Shown one piece after another: positions 7,946-22,331 of a DNA stretch of 47,214 nucleotides. The stretch lies in the NCBI GenBank assembly GCA_005787345.1, contig SYBH01000164.1, positions 1 to 47,214 on the forward strand, given 5' to 3'. The notes under the pieces are model-generated. The model had not been told where the DNA came from, made no database searches, and worked only from the letters and a program-made list of their open reading frames with translations. The DNA is from Actinomycetota bacterium. Lineage in GTDB: Bacteria; Actinomycetota; Acidimicrobiia; Acidimicrobiales; Acidimicrobilacustridaceae. Numbering within the stretch: position 1 is the first letter of the stretch; every line of letters begins with the position of its first letter. A program made the translations under genes and the position numbers.

Positions 7946-9997
7946 TCACTTCGTGTGCTGCGCGTACCACTGCTTCAACGCGCTCTCGATAGCGGTGGTC
8001 ACGGTCGGAGCGATATGGGCAGATCCGGCAGTTGAGTAGTGCAGATGATCAATCCGAATGGTTTTGCCACTCGGCGTGAGCTCTTCGCAAGGTCCGCCTG
8101 TGCACAACAGCTCATTGAGATCAATTGACACCGTTGTATCGCTATGAGCGAGCGCGTACTCACGTTGGATCTGGCGCAACTGGGCGAACTTTCCGATGTT
8201 TGAAGCCGTGAGGCTGTCCTCGCGTTTCTCGTCGGGGAGGACTCTCGGATCAGCCTGAGAAACGATGATGAGTGGCATGCCATTCTCGGTGGCAATCGCA
8301 GCGGCTTTATCGAGTTCTGCGTTGTAGAGGGCGATCCATTCGGGCGAACCAAAGGCGATCCAAGTTCCATCGACAAGTACGTCGTAGGTATCGCGTAAGG
8401 CACCCGACCACACGATCGCGTCAGGCGAAAACGAAGCCGATGCGTCGCGCCATTGTGCTTCCCAGCCGACGCAAGACCCACCACCGCTGCGCAAGATTCC
8501 GAAGGACTTTGTTTGCTGTTGCATCAATGAACACTCGGAGATTCCCTTATTCCAAATGATGATGCGGGTGGGGTCGAACGGCGAGTTGTAGCCAGTGGGC
8601 CAAGGGAATTCGACAATTCCGCCGCCTATTGTCCACGCCACTGAATCGCCAAACCACAGAAGTGAAATGGGAGGGTCGGCGTTTTTGGCTGCTCCTGTTG
8701 AAGGAGCAACATTCGAGGAGAAATCAGTTGGGGCCGGTGCTGATGGCGCAGCACCAAACCAGACGATTCCAACGACGAGCGCAGTGGCGCCGAGCGCCCC
8801 GAGTCCGCCGTAAATGCGGTTTGGCTGTTTGGTTGTTGTGTTCTCGGTCGATGCAGGCCTCTGTCGACGGAATGGTTGCTCGATGAGGTACCAACTCAGA
8901 GCGGTAGCGACTGCGGTGAGCGCGATGCGAATGACGAAGAGCTCGATGCGGCCGGCCTGATCGTCGCTGAGGTGAAGACGGTCTCCTGTGACAAACACTT
9001 TGATTGGCCAGTGCCAGAGGTAGAGCCCGTAGGAGACGAGTCCGAGTGTTCGTAACCAGCGAAAACTGAGCGTCCTCGTGAAGAACGAATCATGACCATT
9101 GAGTGCGAGCACGACGATGCCTGTGGCCATTGCTATGACAAGAAAGCCCCCCGTGTAAAGCCAGTCCGAACGAAAGTCGGCAGTACTTGCGATGCCGATC
9201 AACGCGGCGAGCGCAACAAGCGCTGCGGTGGTGAGTGTCGTGCGGTTCACGGCCTTCAATGAATTCACCGGCCAAAGGCGGATAATGCAGGCAACGGCAA
9301 TACCAACGAAGAGAGCTTGCGAACGCGTATCGGTGCCAAGGTAGACACGTGATGGGTCAGATCCAGGCGTACGCAAGATCCACATGAGTGCACATGATGC
9401 AATTGCACCCACGACCGCACCGATGAGTGCGATGTGAGTCAGGCGGTGTACTCCGATGCGGCGCCGTAGAAGAGCAACTGTTCCGATGAGGGTGATAGGG
9501 AACATCAGGTAGAACTGTTCTTCGACTGCAAGTGACCAGAAATGATTGAGCGGTGATTCGGCGCCGAACGCGGCTTGGTAAGAGTTTTGTTGCGCGATTG
9601 ACCACCAGTTCGCGATGTAGGTAAGTGAGGCAACTGCGTGTCCTCGCAGCGAAGAGTCCACAGACCCGTGATCAAGGATTCTGGCAATGATGACGACGGC
9701 CACGATGGTTGCGATTGCGGCAGGAAGGAGTCGGCGAGCGCGTCTGGCGAAGAACCCCGATGCTGACATTGATTTCGTGTGGTCAACCTCTTCAAGCGCA
9801 AGCGAGGTAATGAGAAATCCGGAAAGCACGAGGAAGATGTCGACGCCGAGGAAGCCGGCCGGCACGATTTCGGGGGCGAAGTGATACATCACCACTGCAA
9901 CAACCGCGAGACCCCGCAACCCGTCAAGCGCGGGGATGTGAGCAAACCGTTTGGCGTCAGGTTCGACGCTTGTCGTTTCGTCAGTCAGTCCCCTCAT
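7946..9997 (-). CDS. OafA/YrhL-type membrane O-acyltransferase with C-terminal SGNH domain
   Basis: A 683-residue protein. Residues 20-380 are an acyltransferase-3 domain with about ten or eleven membrane helices: it opens with IPALDGLRGLAVVAVVMYHF and contains GVDIFLVLSGFLIT, FFARRARRLLP and the EEQFY motif. After a linker, residues from about 430 form a periplasmic/extracellular SGNH esterase-like domain with the nucleophile block WFGDSVAW and the distal DHLHYS. Such fusions transfer acetyl or other acyl groups to cell-surface polysaccharide or peptidoglycan. The ATG at 9997 has no ribosome-binding site but a TACCGT hexamer nine bases upstream. The acceptor is not predictable; the nearest polysaccharide genes are the glycosyltransferase at 17.9-19.0 kb and the LCP gene at 43.9 kb. 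Confidence 0.9.
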   Translation of the reverse strand: MRGLTDETTSVEPDAKRFAHIPALDGLRGLAVVAVVMYHFAPEIVPAGFLGVDIFLVLSGFLITSLALEEVDHTKSMSASGFFARRARRLLPAAIATIVAVVIIARILDHGSVDSSLRGHAVASLTYIANWWSIAQQNSYQAAFGAESPLNHFWSLAVEEQFYLMFPITLIGTVALLRRRIGVHRLTHIALIGAVVGAIASCALMWILRTPGSDPSRVYLGTDTRSQALFVGIAVACIIRLWPVNSLKAVNRTTLTTAALVALAALIGIASTADFRSDWLYTGGFLVIAMATGIVVLALNGHDSFFTRTLSFRWLRTLGLVSYGLYLWHWPIKVFVTGDRLHLSDDQAGRIELFVIRIALTAVATALSWYLIEQPFRRQRPASTENTTTKQPNRIYGGLGALGATALVVGIVWFGAAPSAPAPTDFSSNVAPSTGAAKNADPPISLLWFGDSVAWTIGGGIVEFPWPTGYNSPFDPTRIIIWNKGISECSLMQQQTKSFGILRSGGGSCVGWEAQWRDASASFSPDAIVWSGALRDTYDVLVDGTWIAFGSPEWIALYNAELDKAAAIATENGMPLIIVSQADPRVLPDEKREDSLTASNIGKFAQLRQIQREYALAHSDTTVSIDLNELLCTGGPCEELTPSGKTIRIDHLHYSTAGSAHIAPTVTTAIESALKQWYAQHTK

Positions 9998-12521: not shown

Positions 12522-13202
12522 CTAACCGGTGAATTTCGGATTGATTGTTTGGTCGTCGCCGATCGTGGTCTCTGCTGGTGTCTCGCAAAGGTCAATTGCG
12601 GTCAGGTTGACGAGGTCGATAAGGGCGCTGGTTGAGGTCGCAGCAAATGAGAGGTCGCTCGTTGCGGTGCCGGTTGGGACGGTGAATTGTTCGTTGAATT
12701 GGGTGAGACCGAGCAGCGCTCCGGTTGTTGAGCTGCCGAAGCTTCCGACGATGTTTCCGTTGGTGTCATAGAAAGTGAAGTTCCAGGCGAGTTCGCCCTT
12801 GGCCCAGAAGGAAATCTCATACGTCCCCGGTGAAAGTTCGATGTCACCCTGTGTCATGGTCGCATTGAGTTCGAGAGATGCGAGTTGCGCGTTTGGGTCA
12901 ATCTGAGGAGAGAACCCGTCATCGGTGAGAACGGGGGGAGTTTCATTCATCGCTTGATAGGTGACGACCCCAGTAGAGGGTCGGAGGCGAAGAACAAGTT
13001 GAAGGGTCGACTCTTTCTGAATGTTGTAATCCTGCAGAGTTCGCCCGTCTTCAAGTTCTCTACCGCCGAAGATCAGCTTCTGCTGATCGGGCGGGACTCC
13101 TTCTTTGTCCTGGATCTTCTGTTTCACGTTCTCGATCGCGTCCGAGGGTTCGACATCAAGCGTGATCATCTTGCCTGTGAGCGTCTTGACGAAGATCTGC
13201 AT
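12522..13202 (-). CDS. Ubiquitin-domain fusion protein B
   Basis: A 226-residue protein. Residues 1-76 are an almost eukaryotic ubiquitin beginning [20 protein letters not shown]; against human ubiquitin from memory I count 13 differences (about 83% identity). Lysines 6, 11, 27, 29, 33 and 63 are kept, Lys48 is Arg and His68 is Gln. The processing end is lost: after LRLR come Pro75-Ser76 instead of Gly-Gly. Residues 77-106 are an acidic, Pro-rich linker, and residues 107-205 form a predicted beta-sandwich ([48 protein letters not shown]) resembling carbohydrate-binding or galactose-binding-like domains. There is no signal peptide. ATG 13202 has AAGGAG eight bases upstream and lies 22 bases after copy A. 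Function unknown. Confidence 0.93.
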
Positions 13203-13224
13203 CGCGGGTGCTCCTTAAAGATCT

Positions 13225-13908
13225 TCAGCCGGTGAAGTTTGGATTGATCGTTTGGTCGTTGCCGGTTGCGGTCTCTGCTGTTGTTTCGCAAAGTTCGATT
13301 GCGGTCAGGCTGACGAGGTCGATGAGCGCGCTGTCTGAACGTGCAACGAATGTGAGATCACTGCTTGTGGTGCCTGTTGGGATGGTGAATTGTTCGTTGA
13401 ATTGGGTAAGGCCGAGTAGCGCTCCGGTTGTTGAGCTGCCGAAGCTTCCGATGAGGTTTCCGTTGGTGTCATAGAAAGTGAAGTCCCAATCAAGTTCGCC
13501 TTTGGCCCAGAACGAGAACTCGTAGGTTCCTTGTGCGAGCGAAACACCGCCCTGCGTCATGGTGGCATTGAGAGCGAGGATTGCGAGCTGCGCGTTTGCG
13601 TCGCTCTGAGGCGAAAGATCATCGCTGCTCAAGTCGGGCGGCGATTCGCCGACTTCTTGATAGGTGACGACACCGGTAGTGGCCCCGCTCAGTCGGAGCA
13701 CTAGGTGGAGGGTTGACTCCTTCTGGATGTTGTAATCGGCGAGAATTCGCCCATCTTCAAGTTGTTTCCCGGCGAAAATAAGTCGCTGTTGGTCCGGCGG
13801 GATGCCCTCTTTGTCTTGAATTTTCGCCTTGATGGCGTCGATCGAGTCTGAGCTCTCGACTTCAAGAGTGATGGTTTTGCCCGTGAGGGTTTTGACATAG
13901 ATCTGCAT
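13225..13908 (-). CDS. Ubiquitin-domain fusion protein A
   Basis: A 227-residue paralog of the downstream gene. Residues 1-76 ([18 protein letters not shown]...) differ from human ubiquitin at 10 positions by my alignment (about 87% identity): 4, 19, 22, 24, 25, 26, 55, 57, 74 and 76. All seven ubiquitin lysines and the Leu8-Ile44-His68-Val70 patch are present. The tail reads LRLSGA then TTGVV, so the Gly-Gly is destroyed. A linker (77-106) precedes the beta-rich domain (107-207; [34 protein letters not shown]) with one cysteine at 207 and the end [10 protein letters not shown]. The longest frame begins at 14136, but ATG 13908 with GGAG six bases upstream starts exactly at the ubiquitin methionine. 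There is no signal peptide or membrane segment. Function unknown. Confidence 0.94.
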
Positions 13909-13993: not shown

Positions 13994-14989
13994 TCAAGAG
14001 GTCCTATGTATGACGACGGTGACGTGACGAGCCGATTCGAGTCCGGGGAGCGTTTCTGCGGTTCCGTTAGCGGCGGCATGAAACGGATGTGGTGCGGGGG
14101 TTGATTCGATGAGTGTCGTGAATCCTCTGCGTCCAAAGTCTTCGATCAGATCACGCAATGGATTGCTCCCATCGAGGAATGTCAATTCCGCGCAGAGGCC
14201 GATGAAGGTTCCGTCGGGGGCAAGAAGTTCGGTGCCTTCGAGGATGAATCGTCGCGGGAGTTCGAACCCAGTTTCTCCGCCCTGCGAGTAGATGCGCCCA
14301 TCGGCTCGATGAGCCGGCACCCACGGCGCATTCACACAAACAAAGTCAAAGGTTCCAGGGTGAATTCCAGAGGCGACGTCATTCGCAACAACGTGCATCC
14401 GAGACTTTGCCGTTTCAGGGAGAAGCTCGCGACTGAGTTGCGCAGTCTGCGTCGCTCGTTGGTTGATGTCGGTTGCAACGACTGTTTCGTATCGCGAAGT
14501 GAGGAACGCAGCGACAAGACCCGTTCCGGTCCCAAGATCAATCGCACGCTTTCCGTGTAGCCCGTATTTCCAGGCTTGATCACGTAAGAGCCATGTGTCG
14601 GTGCCGGCATAGACGCTGTCGATCGGAACGTCATCGGCCGAATCGAGAAAGGGGAGAATCGCCATCGCTTTCCCGTCCGACAACACTTCGAAGGAGAGTG
14701 AGAAGCGATGTTCCTCGGTGATGGTTGCGGCTCCCGTTTCAAGCAGCGCTGCAACCGGCTGCGGTCCGCCAAGGAAGCGCGATGCAGCCGCAACGTCGAC
14801 GTACTTGCCTAAGGCAAGATCAGCCAGTGCCTGATTCCTCTCGTCGTCGATTTGAAGACGCCCGAACCGATTGATGAAACCTGCGTCGGAGAGGTGTTGT
14901 CCGAACTCACCTATGGCTTGGAGGCACAGCGCAGAAGCAAGAATGTGCCCCGGTGACCAGCGCTTGATGAGCGCTGAATCCGGTGTCAC
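13994..14989 (-). CDS. HemK/PrmC-like class I SAM-dependent methyltransferase
   Basis: A 331-residue methyltransferase. The N-terminal 140 residues are helical, the SAM-binding motif [15 protein letters not shown] is at about 149-163, and ATDIN marks the acidic ribose ligand. The active-site motif is NAPW (about 220-223), where protein-glutamine and RNA/DNA N-methyltransferases of this group have NPPY or NPPF; the second residue is thus unusual. Relatives methylate release-factor glutamine, rRNA or small molecules; the target here is unknown. GTG 14989 overlaps the previous stop as GTGA, suggesting coupling; a TTG at 15016 is the alternative. It lies 85 bases upstream of ubiquitin-fusion A, which makes the fusion proteins a possible substrate (speculation). 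Confidence 0.82.
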
Positions 14990-15285
14990 GGCGGCGGCGG
15001 GGGAACGAAGGTCCAACCTGGTGCGGTATTCCCCGGTGCTCCGTCCTCAAATGATCCATTGGTAATGAGATTCGTCGAGCCACCAACGCTTGGCCCGCCG
15101 AGGTTGTCTTCGTTGTAGGGGTTCGCAGGTGGATGCCAATAGCCAGCGAACCCGCCATCGAAGGGTTGCGTCGAGCCCGAGACCGTCGCACTGGCCAGCG
15201 AACTGGGGGTCAGCGCCAGCACCCCGAAAAGGCCTGCTCCAAGGCTCAGGGCCCGACGGCGGCTGATTTCAGGGACCGACTTCAT
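14986..15285 (-). CDS. Small Tat-signal secreted protein with a truncated beta-domain start
   Basis: A 99-residue protein with a twin-arginine signal: SRRRALSLGAG then a hydrophobic run and the cleavage-like SLASA near residue 31. The mature part is Gly/Pro/Asn-rich and contains NLITNGSFEDG...GWTF, the typical first strand of carbohydrate-binding/choice-of-anchor beta-sandwich domains, but it ends in five prolines and a stop instead of continuing the domain. It may be a remnant or a deliberately short protein. ATG 15285 is preceded by TACTTT six bases upstream (leaderless). It heads the run that includes the methyltransferase and the ubiquitin fusions. Confidence 0.72.
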   Translation of the reverse strand: MKSVPEISRRRALSLGAGLFGVLALTPSSLASATVSGSTQPFDGGFAGYWHPPANPYNEDNLGGPSVGGSTNLITNGSFEDGAPGNTAPGWTFVPPPPP

Positions 15286-21344: not shown

Positions 21345-22331
21345 TCAGTAGGCCGCAGGGAGGAGTCGAGCGATGTTAGTGAAGGCAAAGAACATCATGA
21401 CCAAAACAATCGGCGTGCCGATGGCGTAGGTGGTGAGGAACTTCCGATCTCTAAAGCGTGTCACGCGCTGTGCCCGTTCTCGCAGCAGTGACGGTGTCCA
21501 GAAGTGGGCCAGCCACCAAGTCCCGAACCATACGAGCCCCGTGAGGAGTGACCACGCAATTGCGGCCGGCCAGGCCGAGGAGTCTCCACCTGCGAGCACA
21601 TCAGTTGAAGCATCGGTGGTAACCCCTTCGTAGACAGGGATCGGGGTCGCTGGCGCTGGAATCGAGGTGAGGGTCGCAGTCACCACGATGCGCTGCGCGG
21701 CGCTGAACTTTGGATGGCAAGACACGAGGGTCAAGCGGTTCCCAACGTTTTGGTCGAGGATGGAAAGATCGTCGGGCGACACGATGATGTGGCCCGAAGC
21801 TGTCCCGTCTTTCGGATCGATGTAGGTATCGACCTTGTAGGTGAAGGTTCCTTGAAGCGTTTGCACCGTGATTATGTCGCCCGGCACAAGCTCATCAATG
21901 CGATGAAACGGTGCTTGATACGTAGTGCGGTGCCCAGCAACTGAGGCATTACCTGGTTGGCCGGGCAGCGGTGTCTGTGGAAAATGTCCCGGGCCTTTTT
22001 GCAGCCATTTGAGGTCAACGCCTTGCACCATGACGAAGTCAGAATTGATGGTCTTCATTGTGATTCGCGCAATGGGGTCACCCGGCTCAGGGATCGGCAG
22101 GTCGGCCGTAGCGGTGACAACAGGTTCTGCCTCTGTAGGAGCTGCCTCTGTAGGAACTGTCGGCGGCGTGAACTCGGCGATCTGGGTGTTGAACTTGTTC
22201 GTGAGGTTGTCCTGAGCCCGAGCCGTAGACAGGCCCGTTCCCCAAAGTTGGTAGGCAACGAACAGCAGAATTACGACGCCGCCGCGCATCATGAACCGCC
22301 CGATTGCTCCCACGATGGTCCACAACTGCAC
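21345..22331 (-). CDS. Class E sortase
   Basis: A 328-residue membrane transpeptidase that would attach proteins to the peptidoglycan. An N-terminal helix at about 17-32 anchors it, the catalytic His134 is in AGHRTTYQAPF, Cys205 in TLVSCHP and Arg214 in AAQRIVV. Class E enzymes usually read TLTTC, so Val-Ser is a variation. Two further hydrophobic segments near 252-275 and 300-325 give extra C-terminal helices. No obvious LPXTG/LAXTG substrate is encoded in this window. The GTG at 22331 has TAGGGT six bases upstream. Confidence 0.9.
   Translation of the reverse strand: MQLWTIVGAIGRFMMRGGVVILLFVAYQLWGTGLSTARAQDNLTNKFNTQIAEFTPPTVPTEAAPTEAEPVVTATADLPIPEPGDPIARITMKTINSDFVMVQGVDLKWLQKGPGHFPQTPLPGQPGNASVAGHRTTYQAPFHRIDELVPGDIITVQTLQGTFTYKVDTYIDPKDGTASGHIIVSPDDLSILDQNVGNRLTLVSCHPKFSAAQRIVVTATLTSIPAPATPIPVYEGVTTDASTDVLAGGDSSAWPAAIAWSLLTGLVWFGTWWLAHFWTPSLLRERAQRVTRFRDRKFLTTYAIGTPIVLVMMFFAFTNIARLLPAAY

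Follow-up and report, generated by a model that had tools for sequence, protein, structure and literature searches.

The window, a stretch of 47,214 nucleotides of contig SYBH01000164.1 (assembly GCA_005787345.1, Acidimicrobiia), contains two tandem genes, copies A and B, which both encode ubiquitin-headed proteins. In the best reading of the data, this ubiquitin is no longer conjugatable and was horizontally acquired. The system is real, conserved and unusual; it is of the secreted-bacterial-ubiquitin kind, and both its split-domain arrangement and its C-terminal tag are undescribed in the literature searched (mostly open-access, preprints outside). We lean slightly towards a model in which the non-conjugated ubiquitin would be exported on a split lectin, hitch-hiking on the twin-arginine translocation (Tat) pathway and sorted by a C-terminal PxFTG motif. 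Sequence and predicted structure support both the split and the export; we infer the joint transport, the anchoring and the ubiquitin target. Features are listed in Table 1.

An earlier note on this DNA had claimed two tandem near-eukaryotic ubiquitin genes at 12522-13908, each starting at the ubiquitin methionine behind a ribosome-binding site, and this was confirmed. Both open reading frames (ORFs) lie on the minus strand, are separated by 22 bases and begin at ubiquitin Met1, preceded by a Shine-Dalgarno-like AAGGAG (copy A) or GGAG (copy B). Some relatives begin MSG-Met1. The upstream extension of the copy B reading frame runs into a methyltransferase gene, and no signal peptide of their own directly precedes Met1 in the window fusions, of which the ORFs begin there. 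The Pfam ubiquitin family PF00240 was matched with E = 6.2e-29 by copy A (residues 3-74) and E = 3.5e-29 by copy B (residues 3-73); the window proteins show both the ubiquitin sequence and the beta-grasp fold of this family. The structure model of copy A was superposed on 1ubq at 0.8 Å over 76 residues (83% identity). Recounting by eye against human ubiquitin gave the same two numbers as before, 10 and 13 differences in 76: relative to the PDB sequence, copy A differs at 11 of 74 aligned positions and, with GG replaced by PS, at 13 of 76, and copy B (88% identity over 74 columns) at 10 of 76. The diglycine end is absent in both copies, which read LRLRPS and LRLSGA and then continue for ~150 residues. 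Ile44-patch residues are mostly kept in 35 Acidimicrobiia-type rows, one of them out of register (Leu8 in 24, Ile44 in 23, Val70 in 26).

Bacterial context was confirmed by recurrence. In one draw, the ubiquitin gene was found in 15 of 21 genus genomes, 1 of 16 other family genomes and 0 of 24 further genomes of the order. A search for the gene across the family returned the same number (16 of 37 genomes positive). An even draw across the phylum yielded 3 positives in 396 genomes, the own genome counted. Where contigs of relatives were long enough, the flanking genes were shared (amidohydrolase, dehydrogenase, thiolase by Pfam, and glycosyltransferase), and strain IMCC26207, the record of which is not labelled a metagenome bin, carries the fusion on a 254-kb contig. 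Contamination or a chimeric assembly might be suspected in an assembly of 82% completeness of which the window is one contig of 174; it was rejected because of the recurrence in the genus, the other assemblies and the shared flanks. Moreover, GC content is continuous across the window except for 53.6% at 13-14 kb. Contamination and chance are excluded by the recurrence. Scans for promoters and terminators were of no use: 0 promoter-like sites came up, and the 6 terminator-like ones (3.2 expected) were all on the plus strand.

The earlier claim of a fusion to a beta-rich domain was borne out by structure prediction, which returned a jelly roll. This C-terminal part of the fusion (C-part) was modelled separately because a structure search using the entire model had brought up nothing but ubiquitins. 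Modelled alone, it had a pLDDT (predicted local distance difference test) of 82 and a pTM (predicted template modelling score) of 0.72. Using Foldseek, the model was matched to the phage tailspike TSP4 and to the carbohydrate-binding modules (CBM) CBM61, CBM16 and CBM4-2 at E 4.2e-6 to 6.5e-5. Similarly, a C-part profile run against the PDB had the end of TSP4 as its top match (E 0.0015), followed by galactanase CBM61 modules (E 0.6-0.7). Residue 1 of the model overlays residue 23-25 of compact CBM16 chains, leaving the first ~20-25 residues uncovered; a complete CBM domain on one chain is absent from the window fusions. In L156, a relative in another genome, a single chain carries VVNGDFSAGMAPW ahead of the part that matches (E 0.002 in one search and 0.005 in another). 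The highest-Z fold rows were domains of insecticidal proteins, a fold that is widespread and uninformative on function. In short, the predicted structure supports a CBM jelly roll missing about its first 20-25 residues, and the fusion appears, from its modelled fold, to be of a sugar-binding (lectin-like) nature.

The missing start of the CBM is probably encoded by a small upstream gene, here called N-part. Its product ends in TNLITNGSFEDGAPGNTAPGW plus TFV, followed by a proline run; this CBM-start-like end measures ~24 residues, about the length of the uncovered CBM16 start. The best PDB match of the N-part profile was 4mgq_A, a glycosyl hydrolase family 10 protein, at NNLIANGTFEENADGWTKPSW (E 0.05), and 4mgs (BiXyn10A CBM1), related to 4mgq, was among the fold matches of the C-part. 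Sequence alone is weak here, and the case draws on position, length and co-occurrence. With loci denoted by L numbers (L091, L093, L095, L096, L101 and L104 being repeats of L011, L014, L012, L013, L016 and L015, and counted once), N-part was present in 20 of the 23 ubiquitin clusters having at least ~1.2 kb of upstream sequence. Seventeen were found by script (window, L011, L012, L014, L015, L016, L019, L021, L022, L024, L092, L094, L100, L103, L105, L106 and the first L018 copy) and three by eye (second L018 copy, L023 and second L155 copy). Outside the 23 stood L020 (115 bases upstream, N-part end present), L017 (contig begins inside the fusion) and L097, L098 and L013 (196-429 bases upstream, no N-part seen); in the L097 genome, N-part is on a different contig. 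The two fusions of IMCC26207 each have their own N-part.

The N-part stop overlaps the ubiquitin gene start in L018, L019, L020, L022 and L023, and by one base in L106; nine bases separate the two genes in L103. Gaps of 980-1106 bases, in most of which the methyltransferase was seen, were found in the window and in L011, L012, L014, L015, L016, L021, L024, L092, L094, L100 and L105. Strong N-part matches (E < 1e-6) occurred in 13 of the 16 ubiquitin-bearing family genomes and in 0 of the 21 ubiquitin-free ones (p = 1.6e-7; 0.0015 within the genus; kinship of the genomes means that independence is overstated). Weak matches (E 8e-4 to 6e-3) in four ubiquitin-free genomes lay mostly on the signal region of long ORFs, and one reached profile position 63 of 81. 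At the motif level, a Tat signal was present in 18 of 18 counted N-parts (the 17 found by script and the second L018 copy) versus 1 of 24 other PxFTG-tailed proteins. A candidate partner with a Tat motif is encoded upstream of the fusion, in a set of overlapping genes on the same strand, and TatC was found in 19 of the 21 genomes searched, the own genome among them.

The order in the window is N-part, methyltransferase and the two ubiquitin-CBM genes, and the methyltransferase also lies between N-part and ubiquitin in relatives with the same gene cluster. It was closest to PRK14968/HemK2-type models, with scores under their cut-offs. Its maximal ORF starts at 15016; a GTG start was assumed, giving a 4-base overlap (GTGA) with the N-part stop. 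Our guess is that it would be expected to act on a protein. The neighbourhood is more than the ordinary operon of the earlier note: the unit includes the half-CBM gene with its Tat signal and, in many cases, a methyltransferase.

Both fusions end in PxFTG directly before the stop. As a DNA pattern, PxFTG-stop gave 26 matches in the own genome, of which 25 end in a true stop and one in TGG, and 0 in the reversed control. Across the 37 family genomes, 552 matches, which may include TGG-ending ones, were obtained versus 35 for the reversed control, and across the other 24 genomes of the order 58 versus 49, with genome G041 of another family alone giving 17 versus 0. The tail consensus was (D)PV(A/V)PxFTG (41 tails from three genomes). 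From 46 distinct tails (own genome, G004 and G005), 24 proteins were tested after removal of 2 from the window, 15 with an open 5′ end and 5 shorter than 120 aa; 23 of the 24 bear a signal-like hydrophobic stretch. The test was done around the hydrophobic core, and another choice of region gave the same result. By eye, the tagged proteins were beta-helix, protease-like, beta-propeller-like and collagen-like, and one has a choice-of-anchor Q domain immediately before the tail. Full-length fusions in tagged genomes carry the tail in 20 of 20 cases (18 FTG, one FAG, one YTG); no tail was readable in the damaged second copy of L015, which stops earlier, and in the G008 and G011 fusions, which leave their contigs. 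In seven tag-free genomes, the fusions are without PxFTG, and all 4 pattern matches there end in TGG. That the tail follows the habit of the host and not the ubiquitin is the strongest argument for counting the fusions among the exported proteins. From these comparisons, PxFTG looks like a family-wide sorting tag without membrane helix, and a sorting or anchoring signal is a rather likely role for it. The layout of LPXTG and PEP-CTERM signals (motif, membrane helix and basic tail) is absent, as the chains terminate at PxFTG. No description of the tag was found in the literature searched. This tag, the upstream gene with its CBM-start-like end and the lack of diglycine in either copy had been missing from the earlier note.

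Two further observations concern the motif. It occurs at the C terminus of dozens of proteins in G000 and 36 other family genomes (e.g. L153, L152, L147 and L140). Also, a sortase-domain protein (PF04203, E 1.8e-26) is encoded ~6 kb beyond N-part; PxFTG resembles LPXTG.

Table 1. Features of the window around the ubiquitin genes
Feature	Position	Strand	Description	Source
Copy A, ubiquitin-CBM fusion	12522..13202	minus	226 aa	ORF list, Pfam, structure model
Copy A ubiquitin	12981-13202		residues 1-74, then PS, without GG; next predicted jelly-roll C-part, linker, tail NPKFTG
Copy A PxFTG-stop tag	12522..12539	minus	CCGAAATTCACCGGTTAG
Copy B, ubiquitin-CBM fusion	13225..13908	minus	227 aa	ORF list, Pfam
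Copy B ubiquitin	13687-13908		end LRLSGA, without GG; next predicted jelly-roll C-part, tail NPNFTG
Copy B PxFTG-stop tag	13225..13242	minus	CCAAACTTCACCGGCTGA
Methyltransferase	13994..14989	minus	class I, S-adenosylmethionine-dependent, PrmC/HemK2-like, motif NAPW; below curated cut-offs
N-part	14986..15285	minus	99 aa; Tat-type signal SRRRAL, CBM-start-like end TNLITNGSFEDGAPGNTAPGW, proline run, stop
Sortase-domain protein	21345-22331	minus

The genes are predicted to be kept by selection. Ratios of nonsynonymous to synonymous substitution rates (dN/dS) were 0.12-0.28 for N-part, 0.08-0.17 for the methyltransferase, 0.09-0.30 for the C-part (one pair saturated) and 0.04-0.14 for ubiquitin (one near-identical pair 0.30 at dS 0.04, one pair saturated). 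These values are rough, several pairs having high dS; N-part, methyltransferase, ubiquitin and C-part all look to be under purifying selection. At least two families within the order (f1 and f7) share the arrangement. Within one gene, ubiquitin and C-part can differ strongly in dS to one relative (window copy A, L013, L098 and L100); for copy A versus L013, dS was 0.53 for ubiquitin and 1.78 for the C-part, which suggests exchange between tandem copies. In G557, an order-level relative, ubiquitin-family matches were located at C18:699-899 and C19:2430-2651, within open frames of 1259 and 1289 residues. A phage origin was considered and dropped, the scan of viral contigs having yielded one distant relative only (L159, 46% over residues 1-73).

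The fusion is probably exported, as judged from the comparison of tails and the modelled domain, and its ubiquitin would then be the N-terminal head of an exported lectin-like protein. In the mechanism proposed here, N-part and the ubiquitin-CBM-C protein would be made by coupled translation and joined in the cytoplasm by strand complementation, which would complete the jelly roll. The folded complex would leave through the Tat pore on the single signal peptide of N-part. At a few dozen residues, the mature N-part would have little need of Tat on its own account; hitch-hiking would explain both the use of Tat by a peptide with little to fold and a fusion without signal, and we favour it by a little. 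The PxFTG tail would sort the fusion with other exported proteins of the family, following a strong comparative pattern. Outside, and this is the weakest step, the ubiquitin surface may bind a protein of another cell, either an envelope protein of a competitor, as is reported for BfUbb, a ubiquitin secreted by Bacteroides fragilis, or a protein with which a grazing protist binds ubiquitin. The methyltransferase may modify one of the partners. Antagonism as the function, suggested by this analogy, is doubtful.

Several points weigh against this mechanism. The CBM match of N-part is weak (E 0.05), and a Pfam CBM was absent from the window N-part and from 10 relatives. For the C-part, Pfam CBM_4_9 stayed below the gathering score (copy B 12.4 bits, E 0.2, versus a cut-off of 25.9), just 1 of 22 C-parts matched a Pfam CBM at all (E 0.076), and no CBM call above cut-off was obtained from Pfam or NCBIfam. 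Three of the 23 clusters are without N-part (L099, L102 and the first L155 copy), and the L023 N-part ends right before the conserved Trp. The window has one N-part for two fusions, which makes the stoichiometry ambiguous. PxFTG comes without hydrophobic anchor and without known machinery, and 21 of the 37 tag-using genomes have no ubiquitin. The ubiquitin tree (94 rows, 74 columns), with 9 of 91 inner branches well supported, mostly lacks resolution, leaves the Acidimicrobiia-type ubiquitins ungrouped and says little on origin. N-part and fusion could also be exported separately, or the fusion could act in the cytoplasm.

The last of these would make the fusions cytoplasmic binding proteins and the Tat N-part a separate small exported protein sharing the operon. 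It would agree with the missing signal peptide of the fusions and with the single N-part before two of them in the window; we consider it rather improbable, given that PxFTG elsewhere sits on exported-looking proteins and is missing from the fusions of the tag-free genomes, that IMCC26207 has one N-part per fusion, that strong N-part matches are limited to ubiquitin-bearing genomes, and that the CBM fold misses about the residues of N-part. Programmed frameshifting, in turn, would yield one exported polypeptide in which ubiquitin sits within a CBM loop, as the overlapping or abutting frames of L018, L019, L020, L022, L023 and L106 might suggest. By eye, no common slippery heptamer was found at these overlaps, and the ubiquitin genes of the window have Shine-Dalgarno-like sequences and Met starts of their own. 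For the window, a frameshifted single protein was rejected because the methyltransferase gene of ~1 kb lies between, as it does, or has room to do, in eleven further clusters, and the chance left to this explanation is slim.

Decay was weighed as well: a transferred ubiquitin gene may have broken a CBM gene of which the pieces persist by chance. Damaged fusions do exist, the second L015 copy (8692-9093) breaking off early within its CBM part and L155, in its first copy, shifting frame inside ubiquitin. Low dN/dS in N-part, ubiquitin and C-part and the sharing of the arrangement between families make a remnant very unlikely. A conjugating system, that is, bacterial ubiquitination, is hardly credible, despite a nearly intact ubiquitin core with its Ile44 patch mostly kept. 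Ubiquitin tagging was rejected for want of the diglycine, the place of which is taken by the C-terminal part. The E2 family PF00179 was found in 0 of 21 genomes, although the control set also gave 0 of 14 and E1 was not searched, and no E2-type enzyme was present among the neighbours scanned.

Known bacterial ubiquitin-like proteins are usually far more divergent according to the earlier note, yet near-eukaryotic ubiquitin domains proved to be scattered over many bacteria. When one genome per species was scanned, 91 loci encoding such a domain came up, of which 80 were kept, 14 of Acidimicrobiia type (L011-L024) and 66 others (L025-L090, labelled bacterial or archaeal). In 56 of these 66, a hydrophobic signal-peptide-like stretch, defined by a self-made rule and not by a trained predictor, directly precedes ubiquitin, and 52 of the 56 stretches have small residues at -3 and -1. 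GG is kept in 6 of the 66. Several records are not labelled metagenome bins, for example Rhodoferax lacus, Neptunomonas antarctica, Rhodopirellula maiorica, Paenibacillus sp. XY044 and Verrucomicrobia bacterium IMCC26134 (complete genome); other loci come from binned genomes, of which the labels may be wrong. A domain scan of ten chosen proteins gave 5 autotransporters, 1 with S-layer homology (SLH), 1 with IPTL-CTERM, 1 with SdrD_B repeats and 2 with ubiquitin only. NCBIfam was run on six shorter proteins (one repeated), with three above the IPTL-CTERM cut-off. Judging by the signal-like stretches and envelope domains, most loci seem to encode an exported protein headed by ubiquitin at its N terminus. 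The Acidimicrobiia genes appear, by sequence comparison, to be a local version of this wider bacterial habit. No paper on ubiquitin-headed bacterial envelope proteins in general, or on the Acidimicrobiia genes, was found in the literature searched.

Some loci of the scan differ from this pattern. L034, on a binned contig labelled 'Cyanobium', has ubiquitin with GG and is possibly eukaryotic contamination; by eye, its ubiquitin is followed by what we take to be a ubiquitin-protease-like domain. L036, L058 and L088 encode short proteins that stop at or just past LRLRGG and are possible free ubiquitins, L058 lying behind a signal-like stretch.

Tentatively, and with somewhat less than even confidence in the whole, a habit of many phyla may be proposed in which ubiquitin serves as a non-covalent head on exported proteins. 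In the two-gene version of the Acidimicrobiia, a Tat-targeted CBM strand donor would capture signal-less ubiquitin-CBM chains, complete their fold in the cytoplasm and carry them out; PxFTG would deliver them to the envelope, and a dedicated methyltransferase would modify a partner. Ubiquitin may thus have another role besides tagging: BfUbb is so far the one secreted bacterial ubiquitin to have been studied, and the scan gives dozens on exported-looking proteins. The Acidimicrobiia form offers, through its split domain, a testable way for a protein without signal to leave via Tat, and PxFTG, as a family-wide C-terminal tag, may define a sorting pathway. By analogy with BfUbb, the exported ubiquitin could bind the targets named above.

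BfUbb is the closest described relative, and the earlier note, which knew of no described system of this kind, was incomplete on this point. BfUbb is a secreted ubiquitin without GG, with a mature chain from Met1, that inhibits other B. fragilis strains, and a horizontal origin was proposed for it (PMC3352274, PMC5705921). Sensitivity is reported to be decided by residue Tyr119 of a peptidyl-prolyl isomerase (Jiang et al., Nat Microbiol 2024, as cited in PMC12396204). The window proteins share with it a near-eukaryotic ubiquitin without GG in a bacterium, a chain that begins at ubiquitin Met1 and, in the proposed model, export and a horizontal origin. Mature BfUbb stands free, has 76 residues and is made with an SpI signal of its own, whereas the window encodes fusions of 226 and 227 aa without signal, in tandem genes, fused to a CBM part and accompanied by a methyltransferase and a half-CBM gene with Tat signal. 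The ubiquitin-headed envelope proteins of the scan (autotransporter, SLH, IPTL-CTERM) are alike in their N-terminal ubiquitin, export or surface build and mostly absent GG; they differ in being single chains with their own signal-like stretch and other anchors. The Tat pathway takes folded proteins out of the cell, and partners without a signal can travel with them (PMC4273604, PMC10924467). In hitch-hikers such as PaoABC (PMC4273604), a signal-less protein leaves on the Tat signal of its partner, as is proposed here. In the present case, the carrier would be a CBM fragment. Known hitch-hiker cases are mostly cofactor enzymes. The C-part resembles the CBM16, CBM61, CBM4 and TSP4 CBM-like domains in its predicted jelly-roll fold, whereas the window domain seems to have its start on a separate chain. 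BUB/BIL and ThiS/MoaD ubiquitin-like proteins form sequence families of their own, in enzyme operons; the window proteins match ubiquitin itself.
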